Shown here one piece after another: positions 30,602 to 33,746 of a stretch of 35,878 nucleotides of DNA. The DNA lies in the NCBI GenBank assembly GCA_028227525.1, contig JAOJAE010000011.1, positions 1-35,878 on the forward strand. The letters are read 5' to 3'. Each line of letters starts with the position of its first letter. Position 1 is the first letter of the stretch. The notes under the pieces were generated by a model. The model saw nothing but the letters and a program-made list of their open reading frames with translations. It had not been told where the DNA came from and searched no databases. Origin of the DNA: Candidatus Pelagibacter sp. (GTDB taxonomy: Bacteria; Pseudomonadota; Alphaproteobacteria; Pelagibacterales; Pelagibacteraceae). The translations under genes were made by a program, and so were the position numbers.

Positions 30602-31048
30602 TTATTTAATTTCTATAAGTTTCTTTTTTTTATGTTCTGGAATAATTCTTTCACATGAAATCGTCAATAGACCATCTTTAAGTTCAGCACCATTGACTTT
30701 TACGTCATCAGCAATAGTGAATGATCTTGCAAATTGTCTTTGAGAAATACCTTTGTGAATAATTTCTCCATCAACATTGTCTTCTTCTGATTTATTAACT
30801 AATTTGGTTCTTACTGTTAATAAATTATCTTCAAACTCAACCTCAACATCTTTTTTATTAAAACCGGCTAATGCAACTTCAATAGCATAGTTATCTTTCC
30901 CAGTTTTTCTAATATTGTATGGTGGATAATTTGACTGCATAGTCAAATTTCCATTTCCAAGCATATTTTCAAATTGATCAAACATATCGTCAAAACCAAT
31001 TGAAAAAGGTCTTAGTGAGTTAAAGATAGATAGATCCTTACTTGTCAT
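30602..31048 (-). CDS. ibpA: Small heat-shock protein Hsp20 (IbpA class)
   Basis: A 148-residue ATP-independent holdase chaperone. N-terminal RPFSIGFDDMFDQFE is the class A motif. The alpha-crystallin domain (about 42-132) contains YPPYNIRKTGKDNYAIEVALAG-type spacing, FNKKDVEVEFEDNLLTV and GISQRQFARSFTIADDV, and ends LKDGLLTISCER. The C-terminal tail ends with an I-x-I motif (LIEIK), used in oligomer assembly. It has a good AAGGAG Shine-Dalgarno, a sigma-32-like promoter and a 58-nt leader with two hairpins, the second resembling a ROSE RNA thermometer. It stands alone between a terminator-like hairpin and ptrB. Confidence 0.95.
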   Translation of the reverse strand: MTSKDLSIFNSLRPFSIGFDDMFDQFENMLGNGNLTMQSNYPPYNIRKTGKDNYAIEVALAGFNKKDVEVEFEDNLLTVRTKLVNKSEEDNVDGEIIHKGISQRQFARSFTIADDVKVNGAELKDGLLTISCERIIPEHKKKKLIEIK

Positions 31049-31108
31049 AATATTCTCCTTTTTAGTTAAGCAAGTTTATTTTTTGTAAGCCCCATTAGGC
31101 GACTTACA
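31049..31108 (-). promoter_or_regulatory. hsp20 5' leader, ROSE-like RNA thermometer candidate
   Basis: On the complementary strand, hairpin 1 (31084-31108) pairs TGTAAG with CTTACA and continues through G/C pairs to a TAAT loop. Hairpin 2 (31055-31074) sets CUUGCUU against AAGGAG, with G31071 unpaired opposite the Shine-Dalgarno, around loop AACUAAA. Known ROSE elements upstream of alphaproteobacterial hsp20 genes use a U-U/C-G-C-U stretch with a critical G facing the Shine-Dalgarno. Confidence 0.6.
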
Positions 31109-31113
31109 GTTTT

Positions 31114-31142
31114 TATGTAGGAATTGATTTTAATATTTCAAG
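31114..31142 (-). promoter_or_regulatory. Heat-shock (RpoH/sigma-32) type promoter of hsp20
   Basis: On the complementary strand CTTGAAA (31136-31142), a 14-nt spacer, then CCTACATA (31114-31121). CTTGAA with a C-rich -10 of CCTAT/CCCCAT type at this spacing is the RpoH consensus. The predicted start (about 31107) coincides with the base of the first leader hairpin. Confidence 0.65.
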
Positions 31143-31152
31143 ATTAGTGGTA

Positions 31153-33228
31153 TTAAATTTTTTCTGATATCTTTAAAGCAAATGCATAATCGATTGCAAT
31201 TTCTTCAATAGCCCCATCTCTTCCAGATTTTCCACCATGACCTGCATTCATTTCTGTTTTTAAAAGCAGTAAATTATTATCAGTTTTATATTCTCTTAAT
31301 TTTGCGGTGAATTTTGCTGGTTCATCAAATAAAACTCTATTATCACTTAAACTGGTAGTTATTAATATATGAGGATAATCCATCTTTTTAATATTATTAT
31401 AAGGGGCATAAGAAAATATATAATCAAAATGCTCTTTATTATCTTTAGCATTTCCAAATTCATCAAACTCTCCAACCGTTAAGGGTAGAGAGTGGTCAAG
31501 ATTGGTCGTTAGAGAGTCTACGAATGGCACAGCCATAATTATTCCTAGAAATAATTCTGGAGCTTGATTAACCACTGCACCCATTAATAAACCTCCTGCA
31601 GATCCACCCATACCAATTATTTTTCCCTTAGAAGAATATTTTTGATCAATTAAATATTTTGCAGCATAGATATAGTCTTCAAAGCTATTTTTCTTGTTTG
31701 TAAGTTTTCCCTCTTTCCACCACTTCATCCCTTTTTCCATACCACCTCTAATATGTGCAGTTGCCCAAATGATATCCCGATCAATTAAACTCAATCTTGT
31801 AGATGAAAAATTTGGACTCATAGAACTACCGTATGAACCATATCCATAAAGCAATAAGTTTGCCGAACCATCAATTTTAGTTTTTTTATGTCTGGTAATT
31901 GTTAAGGGTACTAATCTTCCATCATGTGATTTATATTCTATCCTTTCAACAATATAATCATCTGGGTTGTGACCAGATGGTATCTCCTGTTCTTTAACAA
32001 GTTTTTTTGATTTATTATCTAAATTATATAAATAAACTCTTGATGGAGTTTTAGGAGACGAGTAACCAAGATATACTTCGTTAGTATTTCTATCTCTCTG
32101 CACCAAAGAAATACCTGGCACATAAATATTTTCTTCAGAAAATAATAATTCTTCTTCTAATCCTGTTGAAATATTTCTAACAAATAATTTGTCTAATGCA
32201 TTAGAAGTTTCAGATCGAATGATCCAATCGTTTAAAAAAGTTAACCCACCTATCAAAACCTCATCTCTTGAAGGAATAAATGTTTTCCATTCTTGATTAA
32301 TTAGATTGTCAGAAATATCAATTTTAAAATCTTCTGCATCTTTGTTTGTATGATTGTAAAATTTCCCATCCCAAGAACTTACTGAATAAAGAATGCCTTT
32401 TTCTCTTTTCATTATTAACTTAGGAGTAGGATTTTTTTCATCTACTCCAAAATAATATTGCTCGGATGTGTTATGATCAGATGTATTAATAAAATAATAT
32501 TTTTCATCAGAACTTAAACCAATACTAACCGTGAACGCTTCACTTGTTTCATCAAATATTAATTGATCTTGGTCTTTAAAATTTCCAATCTCGTGTCTAT
32601 ATATTTTTCTTGCTCGGTGATTTTCATCAAGTTTAGAATAAAAAATAAATTTATCATCTAAGCTAAATGTTATTCCCCCTGAAGTTTCAGAAATTTCTTT
32701 TGTTATGATCTTATTGTTTTCAATATTTCTTATAAAAATTGTATAATATTCTGAACCTTTAGTATCTAGAGAATATCCTAAATATTTATCATTGTGACTT
32801 ACTTCTAAATCACCAACACCAAAATATTCAACACCTAGAATTTCCTTTTCTTTATCTCCATTCCAAATTTCCTCAACTTCATCTGAATTAATTTTCTTTC
32901 TTAGCTTTATTGAATAATTGCCAGTTTTAGTTGTCTTGGTCCAATATTCATAGGTGTGATCTCTATAAGGCAAAGACTCATCATCTAATTTTATTCTTCC
33001 TTTAATTTCGTCAAATATTTTTTTTTGTAAAGGCTTTGTGTTCTCTAAATGGTGATCAGTATATTTATTTTCTTCTTCTAGATAATTCTTTACTTCAGGT
33101 AAAAGTTTACTCTTATCTCTAAGTACCTCTAAAATATTTTTTTGGTGTATCCAGCTATAATCATCCTGCCATGTAACATCATGACATGATTTTAATTCTG
33201 GTTTTTTTTCAAGATATGGTATTTTCAT
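31153..33228 (-). CDS. ptrB: Oligopeptidase B (S9A prolyl-oligopeptidase family)
   Basis: A 691-residue serine peptidase. An N-terminal beta-propeller (about 60-400) is followed by an alpha/beta-hydrolase domain. YGYGSYG and WATAHIRGGMEKGMKWW are the oxyanion-side motifs, and the nucleophile is S543 in GMGGSAGG. The aspartate lies in LSDNRVLFDEPAK and the histidine in MNAGHGGKSGR. The EFG-type VGEFDEFGN segment and the GEFDE acidic residues match oligopeptidase B, which cuts short peptides after Arg/Lys. No signal peptide is seen, so it is cytoplasmic. ATG at 33228. The neighbouring J-domain gene starts 14 bp away in the opposite direction. Length is typical (about 690). Confidence 0.94.
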   Translation of the reverse strand: MKIPYLEKKPELKSCHDVTWQDDYSWIHQKNILEVLRDKSKLLPEVKNYLEEENKYTDHHLENTKPLQKKIFDEIKGRIKLDDESLPYRDHTYEYWTKTTKTGNYSIKLRKKINSDEVEEIWNGDKEKEILGVEYFGVGDLEVSHNDKYLGYSLDTKGSEYYTIFIRNIENNKIITKEISETSGGITFSLDDKFIFYSKLDENHRARKIYRHEIGNFKDQDQLIFDETSEAFTVSIGLSSDEKYYFINTSDHNTSEQYYFGVDEKNPTPKLIMKREKGILYSVSSWDGKFYNHTNKDAEDFKIDISDNLINQEWKTFIPSRDEVLIGGLTFLNDWIIRSETSNALDKLFVRNISTGLEEELLFSEENIYVPGISLVQRDRNTNEVYLGYSSPKTPSRVYLYNLDNKSKKLVKEQEIPSGHNPDDYIVERIEYKSHDGRLVPLTITRHKKTKIDGSANLLLYGYGSYGSSMSPNFSSTRLSLIDRDIIWATAHIRGGMEKGMKWWKEGKLTNKKNSFEDYIYAAKYLIDQKYSSKGKIIGMGGSAGGLLMGAVVNQAPELFLGIIMAVPFVDSLTTNLDHSLPLTVGEFDEFGNAKDNKEHFDYIFSYAPYNNIKKMDYPHILITTSLSDNRVLFDEPAKFTAKLREYKTDNNLLLLKTEMNAGHGGKSGRDGAIEEIAIDYAFALKISEKI

Positions 33229-33242
33229 TACTAGGGAAATAT

Positions 33243-33746
33243 ATGAATATAATAATTTATACAGTATTAATTTTGGTCGCTTTATATTTTTTATTAAGGT
33301 TTTTTGGGGCTATAAATTCAAAAAAAATATCACAAGGTGTAAGAATATTATTATTTATTGGTTTAATAGCTATCGCAATTTTATTTGCTGTCGCGGGCAA
33401 ATTTTTATTAACTTTACCACTAACAATTGCAAGCTTGGCTTTATTAAAATTAAAAGGTCTTTCTTTTTTTCAATTAATTTCACTATTCCGTTTAATTCAA
33501 ACTCTTAGAAATTCTGGAAGATTTTCATTTAATAATAAAAATGTTTCTAATTCTAATACAATGACTACTTCAGAAGCGTATAAAATATTAAATCTTAATC
33601 CGTCTCAAAAAATCACAAAAGAAGATGTTAATAGGGCATATATTAAAATACAAAAAAAAATTCATCCTGATATTTCACCAGAAACTTCAAGACTTTCATC
33701 TATAGTTAATGAAGCAAAAGAAATTGTTATAAAGGATTTATCTTAA
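33243..33746 (+). CDS. Membrane-anchored J-domain protein
   Basis: A 167-residue protein. Hydrophobic segments lie at about 3-21, 33-53 and 55-70, followed by a short linker and a C-terminal J-like domain (about 107-165): TMTTSEAYKILNLNP, the helix EDVNRAYIKIQKKI and the HPD triad at 141-143, needed to stimulate Hsp70 ATPase. TM segments ahead of a C-terminal J domain are the arrangement of alphaproteobacterial DnaJ-like proteins related to mitochondrial Tim14/Pam18. It may recruit DnaK to the inner membrane; clients are unknown. The frame is open to an ATG at 33186 inside ptrB, but the ATG at 33243, preceded by AGGGA, begins the first helix and is preferred. Confidence 0.8.
   Translation: MNIIIYTVLILVALYFLLRFFGAINSKKISQGVRILLFIGLIAIAILFAVAGKFLLTLPLTIASLALLKLKGLSFFQLISLFRLIQTLRNSGRFSFNNKNVSNSNTMTTSEAYKILNLNPSQKITKEDVNRAYIKIQKKIHPDISPETSRLSSIVNEAKEIVIKDLS

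Follow-up and report, generated by a model that had tools for sequence, protein, structure and literature searches.

The hsp20 mRNA of SAR11 bacteria very probably carries a ROSE-type RNA thermometer that is reduced to two hairpins in approximately 58 nt. Comparison of leaders and genomes lends good support to this reading, in which the element would be new as a variant and not as a kind. The window, by which we mean the whole 35,878-nucleotide stretch of Candidatus Pelagibacter sp. DNA that was analysed, contains hsp20 on the minus strand, separated by a 104 bp gap from an S9 peptidase gene (31153-33228, minus strand). Counted from the expected transcription start (31108-31106) to the AUG, the leader is 58-60 nt long. 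The landmarks that an earlier note had read from this DNA, namely promoter-like elements, hairpin 1, a CUUGCUU strand with a bulged G and an AAGGAG Shine-Dalgarno (SD) sequence, are all present upstream of hsp20 on the minus strand (Table 1). As listed, a J-domain-like open reading frame recognized by eye (33186-33746, plus strand) shares 43 bases with the start of the S9 peptidase gene, probably owing to a start that was called too early.

Table 1. Features of the hsp20 locus in the window, and genes that follow the newly fetched loci matched by model R1 (see text).
Feature	Position	Strand	Basis
hsp20, small heat-shock protein of 148 aa	30602-31048	-	Pfam HSP20 PF00011, E 2.8e-16
hsp20 codons 2-4, ACA AGT AAG; AAGTAAG (31043-31037) can pair with CUUGCUU	31037-31045	-	nucleotide-level invariance
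hsp20 start codon, ATG	31048	-	sequence reading
Shine-Dalgarno sequence AAGGAG, 3' arm of SD hairpin	31055-31060	-	invariant in alignment A2 (56 leaders)
Loop of SD hairpin, AACTAAA in the window	31061-31067	-	3-7 nt in the two-hairpin leaders listed; length and bases vary, arms fixed
Anti-SD strand CUUGCUU; ROSE core UUGCU at 31073-31069, bulged G at 31071	31068-31074	-	conservation of U(U/C)GCU
Hairpin 1, GTAAGTC[G]CC-TAAT-GGGGCTTAC; bulged G at 31100	31084-31108	-	core pattern, covariation and ROSE hairpin I layout
Predicted transcription start, foot of hairpin 1	31106-31108	-	inferred from spacing to the -10-like element
Sigma-32 (RpoH)-like promoter: CTTGAAA 31142-31136, N14 31135-31122, CCTACATA 31121-31114	31114-31142	-	sequence reading; type inferred
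R1 loci before Hsp20: L180-L186, L188, L190, L195, L202, L204			tblastn; five of the twelve were tested by Pfam and confirmed
R1 loci before DnaK: L191, L194, L200, L203			Pfam (L191); reading frame (L194, L200, L203)
R1 loci before other heat-shock genes: L192 (sigma factor resembling RpoH), L199 (GroES)			
R1 loci without a heat-shock gene: L187, L189, L193, L196, L197, L198, L201			

We compared 167 hsp20 leaders of the SAR11 order, comprising the window, 80 loci and 86 of 90 further loci, among which 137 distinct 80-nt leaders occur. The 80 loci are the best 80 of 563. The 90 loci were drawn from the 342 genomes with hsp20 (55 of 397 were without it), 60 of them being picked for divergence, and the two sets come partly from the same genomes (for example, L001 and L083). 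Four of the 170 fetched loci (L122, L139, L140 and L154) were without a start and were left out. Two leader architectures were found: two hairpins in 151 leaders, including that of the window (group A), and three hairpins in 15 full leaders (group B, L123-L138 without L126).

A U(U/C)GCU strand lies ahead of an AGGA-type SD in 166 of the 167 leaders, and the single exception, L126, is a contig that ends 18 nt before the gene. Within this core, the G is invariant and the only change is U to C at position 2, where either base is able to pair with a G of the SD. The earlier note had staked its reading on conservation of the UUGCU strand and the bulged G across relatives, and both are conserved in these 166 leaders, with the U/C position alone varying. 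The strict pattern T[TC]GCT-N0-9-AGGAG-N3-9-ATG was found at 164 hsp20 sites versus none of 221 other AGGAG-N3-9-ATG sites in the same loci, many of which are orthologous and thus not independent. Likewise, a bulged-G hairpin of at least 6 pairs over the SD is possible in all 120 distinct group A leaders versus 28 of 170 control sites; the loop is 10 nt or shorter in 4 of these 28 as listed.

Because the looser pattern TTGCT-N1-9-AGGAG-N3-9-ATG recurs 1-7 times per genome (its reversed form 0-1 times; 20 whole genomes), one leader alone is weak evidence. These recurrences, and a single-sequence fold of the window that is unremarkable (z of -1.04 and -1.34; minimum-energy fold without the SD hairpin), are what would be expected of an ordinary leader in which UUGCU falls near the SD by chance in AT-rich sequence. 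We consider this explanation highly improbable, given that the strand recurs throughout the sample and is invariant across proteins down to ~40% identity to that of the window. Moreover, R1, a model built from group A hsp20 leaders, finds hsp20 leaders in genomes outside its building set.

The SD hairpin usually takes the form CUU[G]CUU/AAGGAG, with CUC[G]CUU in 3 leaders. In 23 leaders, CCUU[G]CU or UCUU[G]CU faces AGGAGG, such that the inner U-A pair is gone and an outer C-G or U-G pair is added; ACUUGCUU leaders keep the inner U-A. The last hairpin of group B is mostly UUUAAUC[G]CUU(AAG)GAGGAUUAAA. Other lineages have a longer outer stem with matched changes on the two arms (AUCUU/GAGAU, AACUU/GAGUU, UUUAAUC/GAUUAAA and AAUUAAC/GUUAAUU), which were found by a search that maximizes pairing around a G and hence gives a table biased to pairing, though U(U/C)GCU was not imposed. 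MAFFT places the CCUUGCU and UCUUGCU rows one base out of register, so the SD hairpin was counted by scripts. The covariation that the earlier note had looked for in the CUUGCUU/AAGGAG stem was borne out across lineages, by these matched changes, and is nearly absent within the order: no pair of the SD helix shows a both-sided change in group A alignment A2. For the three-hairpin group, RNAalifold predicted the bulged-G SD hairpin unaided, with pairs that hardly vary; on alignment A1, in which part of the SD strand is one base out of register, it predicted hairpin 1 alone. In fourU thermometers, four uridines pair with the AGGA of the SD. This class was ruled out, the strand here being CUUGCUU.

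Hairpin 1 provides the covariation that the SD helix largely lacks within the order. Its core was detected with a loose pattern in all 151 two-hairpin leaders. In alignment A2, which holds 56 diverse group A leaders, the main helix is 96.9% paired and 5 of its 8 pairs show both-sided changes. The covariation score of the whole structure was reached in 0 of 500 shuffles and the number of both-sided pairs in 8 of 500, and every slid version scored lower. RNAalifold recovers hairpin 1 from group A leaders unaided. Alignment A4, also used for a covariation test, kept 5 weak matches (E >0.1), two of which lie in the three-hairpin hsp20 leaders L131 and L127.

Given that hairpin 1 is the sole strongly covarying part within two-hairpin leaders and that its head is very conserved, it could be argued that this hairpin alone matters, as a 5' stabilizer or a protein site, and that UUGCU is kept for some other role, for instance contact with a partner RNA or protein. 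PMC3669281 suggests that a 5' hairpin can be stabilizing. We judge this account unlikely, since the position of UUGCU, the unpaired G, the pairing register and the freedom of loop length are all in keeping with an SD hairpin, and in other lineages the changes in the outer stem track the SD side.

The region upstream of hairpin 1 is similarly constrained. TTGAA is present in 163 of 167 leaders and CTTGAA in 151, and a loose -35/-10 pattern was found in 152. In 141 of 151 group A leaders, TTGAA lies 36-39 nt from the hairpin core; of the others, 3 are without TTGAA and 7 have a more distant match. The bases between the -10 element and the hairpin vary across leaders, whereas the distance is nearly fixed. 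The sigma-32 promoter consensus served to type the promoter, and rpoH (TIGR02392) was above cut-off in 19 of 20 SAR11-order genomes searched. The near-fixed spacing fits transcription by RpoH from the foot of hairpin 1, with the promoter type and start both predicted. Among the same 20 genomes, three with a three-hairpin hsp20 leader (G007, G009 and G015) have a second RpoH-like match of 289-296 bits, below the cut-off of 323, beside one above it; the second match is absent in the other 17.

Folded alone, the SD hairpin of the window is predicted to have an energy of -2.7 kcal/mol at 15 °C and +0.3 kcal/mol at 37 °C, crossing zero near 35 °C. In a hand-picked set of nine hairpins, the zero-energy temperatures of the eight other forms are 42-62 °C, all above that of the window. 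At 37 °C, three other two-hairpin forms of the SAR11 order have energies of -0.6 to -2.8 kcal/mol, a three-hairpin form -4.0 kcal/mol and L208, a match to the Rfam ROSE family RF00435, -5.9 kcal/mol. The low predicted melting temperature of the window's SD hairpin would suit a cold-water cell. In the full-context partition function of the window, the probability that the SD is paired goes from 0.28 at 5 °C to 0.22 at 45 °C, which amounts to no switch. The mean for 56 leaders falls from 0.62 at 5 °C to 0.47 at 37 °C. The SD of L112 is almost free across the whole temperature range (probability paired 0.01-0.04), and the anti-SD strand is predicted to pair with the start-codon region throughout. 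The window's energies argue against a simple melting switch, but call for caution since the model counts the unpaired G as an ordinary bulge. Overall, the proposal of the earlier note that this leader is a ROSE-like thermometer draws its support from comparison, while standard energies predict no melting switch from the window's own sequence.

At the start of the reading frame lies a possible second partner for the anti-SD strand. Codons 2-4 are ACA AGT AAG in all 116 distinct genes of the main clade (those whose protein starts MTSK), and of 27 comparable codons the other 24 are all conserved at 94% or less. Lys4 is AAG in 141 of 141 cases; elsewhere in the same genes, AAG accounts for 443 of 2113 Lys codons. 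The window's anti-SD strand is predicted to form a duplex of -7.3 kcal/mol with AAGUAAG, which runs from the end of codon 2 through codon 4, versus -4.6 kcal/mol with the SD. For CCUUGCU leaders this role falls to AGUAAGG (codons 3 to 5), with energies of -9.4 versus -4.1 kcal/mol. Synonymous recodings that pair equally well make up 2-6% in the 12 rows listed out of 17 MTSK rows. This pairing may represent a second off-state, or the first codons may be under a separate constraint.

The codon invariance, the duplex energies, the scarcity of equivalent recodings and the window's partition function favour a switch with three strands, in which the main-clade CUUGCUU would pair mainly with AAGUAAG (AGUAAGG in CCUUGCU leaders), the SD and AUG would be held in the loop, and SD pairing would be a minor or intermediate state. 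This possibility, which overlaps the ROSE-type explanation and is not exclusive of it, is one that we hold only tentatively. Beyond MTSK genes, the codon pairing reaches -7.7 kcal/mol in L111, is weaker in the other two-hairpin rows (-3.2 to -4.8 kcal/mol) and hardly or not at all forms in L121 and the three-hairpin rows (-1.8 to 0.1 kcal/mol); such a switch is therefore not general in the order, whereas U(U/C)GCU persists. In addition, SD pairing dominates the partition function of L116 and L156 (and that of L150 at low temperature), no covariation was detected between the anti-SD strand and the codons, and pairing with the codons would engage the G, leaving its bulging against the SD unexplained. 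Conceivably, the main-clade UUGCUU strand can either cover the SD or clamp the beginning of the coding frame, which would make the element a cold-tuned thermometer in which codons 2-5 are the competitor and a weak SD helix is set against a stronger codon helix.

To place the element among known families, the earlier note had proposed a scan with the Rfam ROSE covariance models; these returned no match in the window or in 18 relatives scanned, up to E 10. A match to the preQ1-II riboswitch (RF01054; 16.3 bits against a cut-off of 47, E 4.1) and other low-scoring Rfam matches in the window and relatives were taken as chance. A 2005 survey reportedly covered ROSE elements in alpha- and gammaproteobacteria. 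Of 142 alphaproteobacterial genomes, 0 have a match above the cut-off that Rfam sets for RF00435, and 21 have a sub-threshold match at E<=0.1. Twelve sub-threshold loci were fetched: 10 have Hsp20, which in 9 starts at the match. When R1 was run unfiltered on these 12 loci, it gave 4 matches at E<=1 (0.084-0.91), all beginning no more than 4 nt from the 5' end of the ROSE match; one of the four loci, L213, is without Hsp20 by profile. ROSE hairpin I in the Rfam consensus and SAR11 hairpin 1 both have an unpaired G, CC/GG and a four-base loop; the former has six further pairs and the latter seven. Because the layout is shared and the R1 matches align with ROSE 5' ends, we take the two hairpins to be homologous rather than merely analogous.

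Searching 385 genomes across the Alphaproteobacteria with R1 yielded a match at E<=0.1 in 48. Thirty loci were returned, 5 from genomes met in the search of the order and 25 (L180-L204) from others, some of which may belong to the same order. Eighteen of these 25 precede heat-shock genes (12 Hsp20, 4 DnaK, 1 RpoH-like sigma factor and 1 GroES) and 7 precede none such (Table 1); among the first 11 (L180-L190), 9 precede Hsp20. Weak R1 matches before genes resembling a TRAP-type binding protein (L205) and the ATP synthase c subunit (L206) look like chance. An element general to dnaK leaders was ruled out: in 30 such leaders, taken from 47 genomes with dnaK above cut-off, U(U/C)GCU lies in the last 45 nt in 3 and a bulged-G SD hairpin (at least 6 pairs) is possible in 2. 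R1 matched 3 of these 30 loci at E<=1, one of them clearly (L244, 0.0025). A dnaK thermometer is nonetheless possible in some lineages, as leaders of L191, L194, L200, L203 and L244 are matched by R1.

Several individual loci have related structures. A long bulged-G hairpin that spans the SD, UAAUUU[G]CCU...AGGAGAUUA, is common to the dnaK leaders L191 (1501-1563) and L244. L192 (1501-1567, minus strand) has a hairpin with a GCC-UAAUG-GG head before the sigma factor gene resembling rpoH. At L187 (1501-1540), a hairpin with GGTCGCCTAATGGGGCC, as in SAR11 hairpin 1, is followed by a T run like that of an intrinsic terminator, upstream of an ABC ATPase-like gene. L171 (G331:C4) has TTGCTC-N-AAAGGAG before a gene resembling an amino-acid ABC binding protein, and similar strings occur in G001:C6 and G004:C5. 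ROSE-like thermometers before ABC transporter genes are described in the part of PMC11342760 consulted.

In a tree of 41 Hsp20 rows, 22 two-hairpin rows (16 from the order plus six newly found) fall on one side of a branch with 100/98 support, and all 16 three-hairpin rows fall on the other together with three two-hairpin rows (L184, L195 and L204). The hairpin labels were assigned by eye, the root is the midpoint, and the tree carries a warning on long branches that meet. The simplest history would be that the middle hairpin was lost in the ancestor of the two-hairpin Hsp20 group and a few times elsewhere. These results suggest that ROSE extends further across the Alphaproteobacteria than the Rfam cut-off reveals and is reducible to its first and last hairpins.

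We propose that RpoH transcribes hsp20 in response to protein misfolding. At normal sea temperature, UUGCU would keep the SD in an imperfect helix and translation would be low; warming would open this weak helix and allow the 30S subunit to bind. Hairpin 1 would remain intact, shielding the 5' end and assisting the folding of the sensor hairpin. The middle hairpin of longer ROSE elements is missing here. SAR11 bacteria rank among the most abundant cells on Earth and possess few regulators. If the proposal is true, chaperone translation in these cells would be set by sea temperature itself, and the melting point of the thermometer sequence could be compared across warm- and cold-water lineages.

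The element has the sequence features of the ROSE-like class: it lies in the 5' UTR of a small heat-shock gene, with the SD in the 3' hairpin and a U(U/C)GCU strand that should pair imperfectly with it, the G being bulged. This motif has been published with the U/C variation (PMC3669281, PMC11342760), and PMC11342760 gives the definition by bulged G and U(U/C)GCU together with mutants of ROSE-like thermometers, as far as the parts of these sources consulted go. No SAR11 hsp20 thermometer is reported in the parts of the open literature searched, including PMC2704228, PMC6429828, PMC11109978 and PMC2864753; PMC6429828 and PMC11109978 count one and two thermometer candidates, respectively, in passages where the genes are not named.

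With ROSE as represented by RF00435, the SAR11 element shares the gene, the place, the U(U/C)GCU strand with a G bulged against the SD, and the layout of hairpin I. It differs in being AT-rich, in having a short SD stem without a long outer helix, in its lack of an Rfam match and in its two hairpins. Classical ROSE has three to four (excerpt of PMC3669281), and because of this difference in number we do not file the SAR11 element as classical ROSE. The three-hairpin hsp20 leaders of the same order share the core strand, as UCGCU, with a G bulged against the SD, and differ by a middle hairpin and the longer outer stem UUUAAUC/GAUUAAA. The earlier note's suggestion that this may be one of the smallest ROSE-type elements is fair, yet it is no record by much: ROSE of Pseudomonas putida ibpA has two hairpins in 62 nt (PMC3669281, in the part consulted), and the Synechocystis hsp17 thermometer is a single hairpin (PMC4477652, likewise). 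The latter is, as here, a very small thermometer before a small heat-shock gene, but with one hairpin and no U(U/C)GCU motif noted in that excerpt. The Pseudomonas ibpA thermometers come closest in organization, in that two hairpins, a ~60-nt 5' UTR, a stable hairpin I, a U(U/C)GCU sensor and sigma-32 transcription are described for them in the same part of PMC3669281, a likeness drawn from published descriptions. Their sensor core is flanked by G-C pairs and has energies of -4.1 to -7.6 kcal/mol in that account, whereas the sensor hairpin of the window, at the +0.3 kcal/mol given above for 37 °C, is predicted to be weaker.
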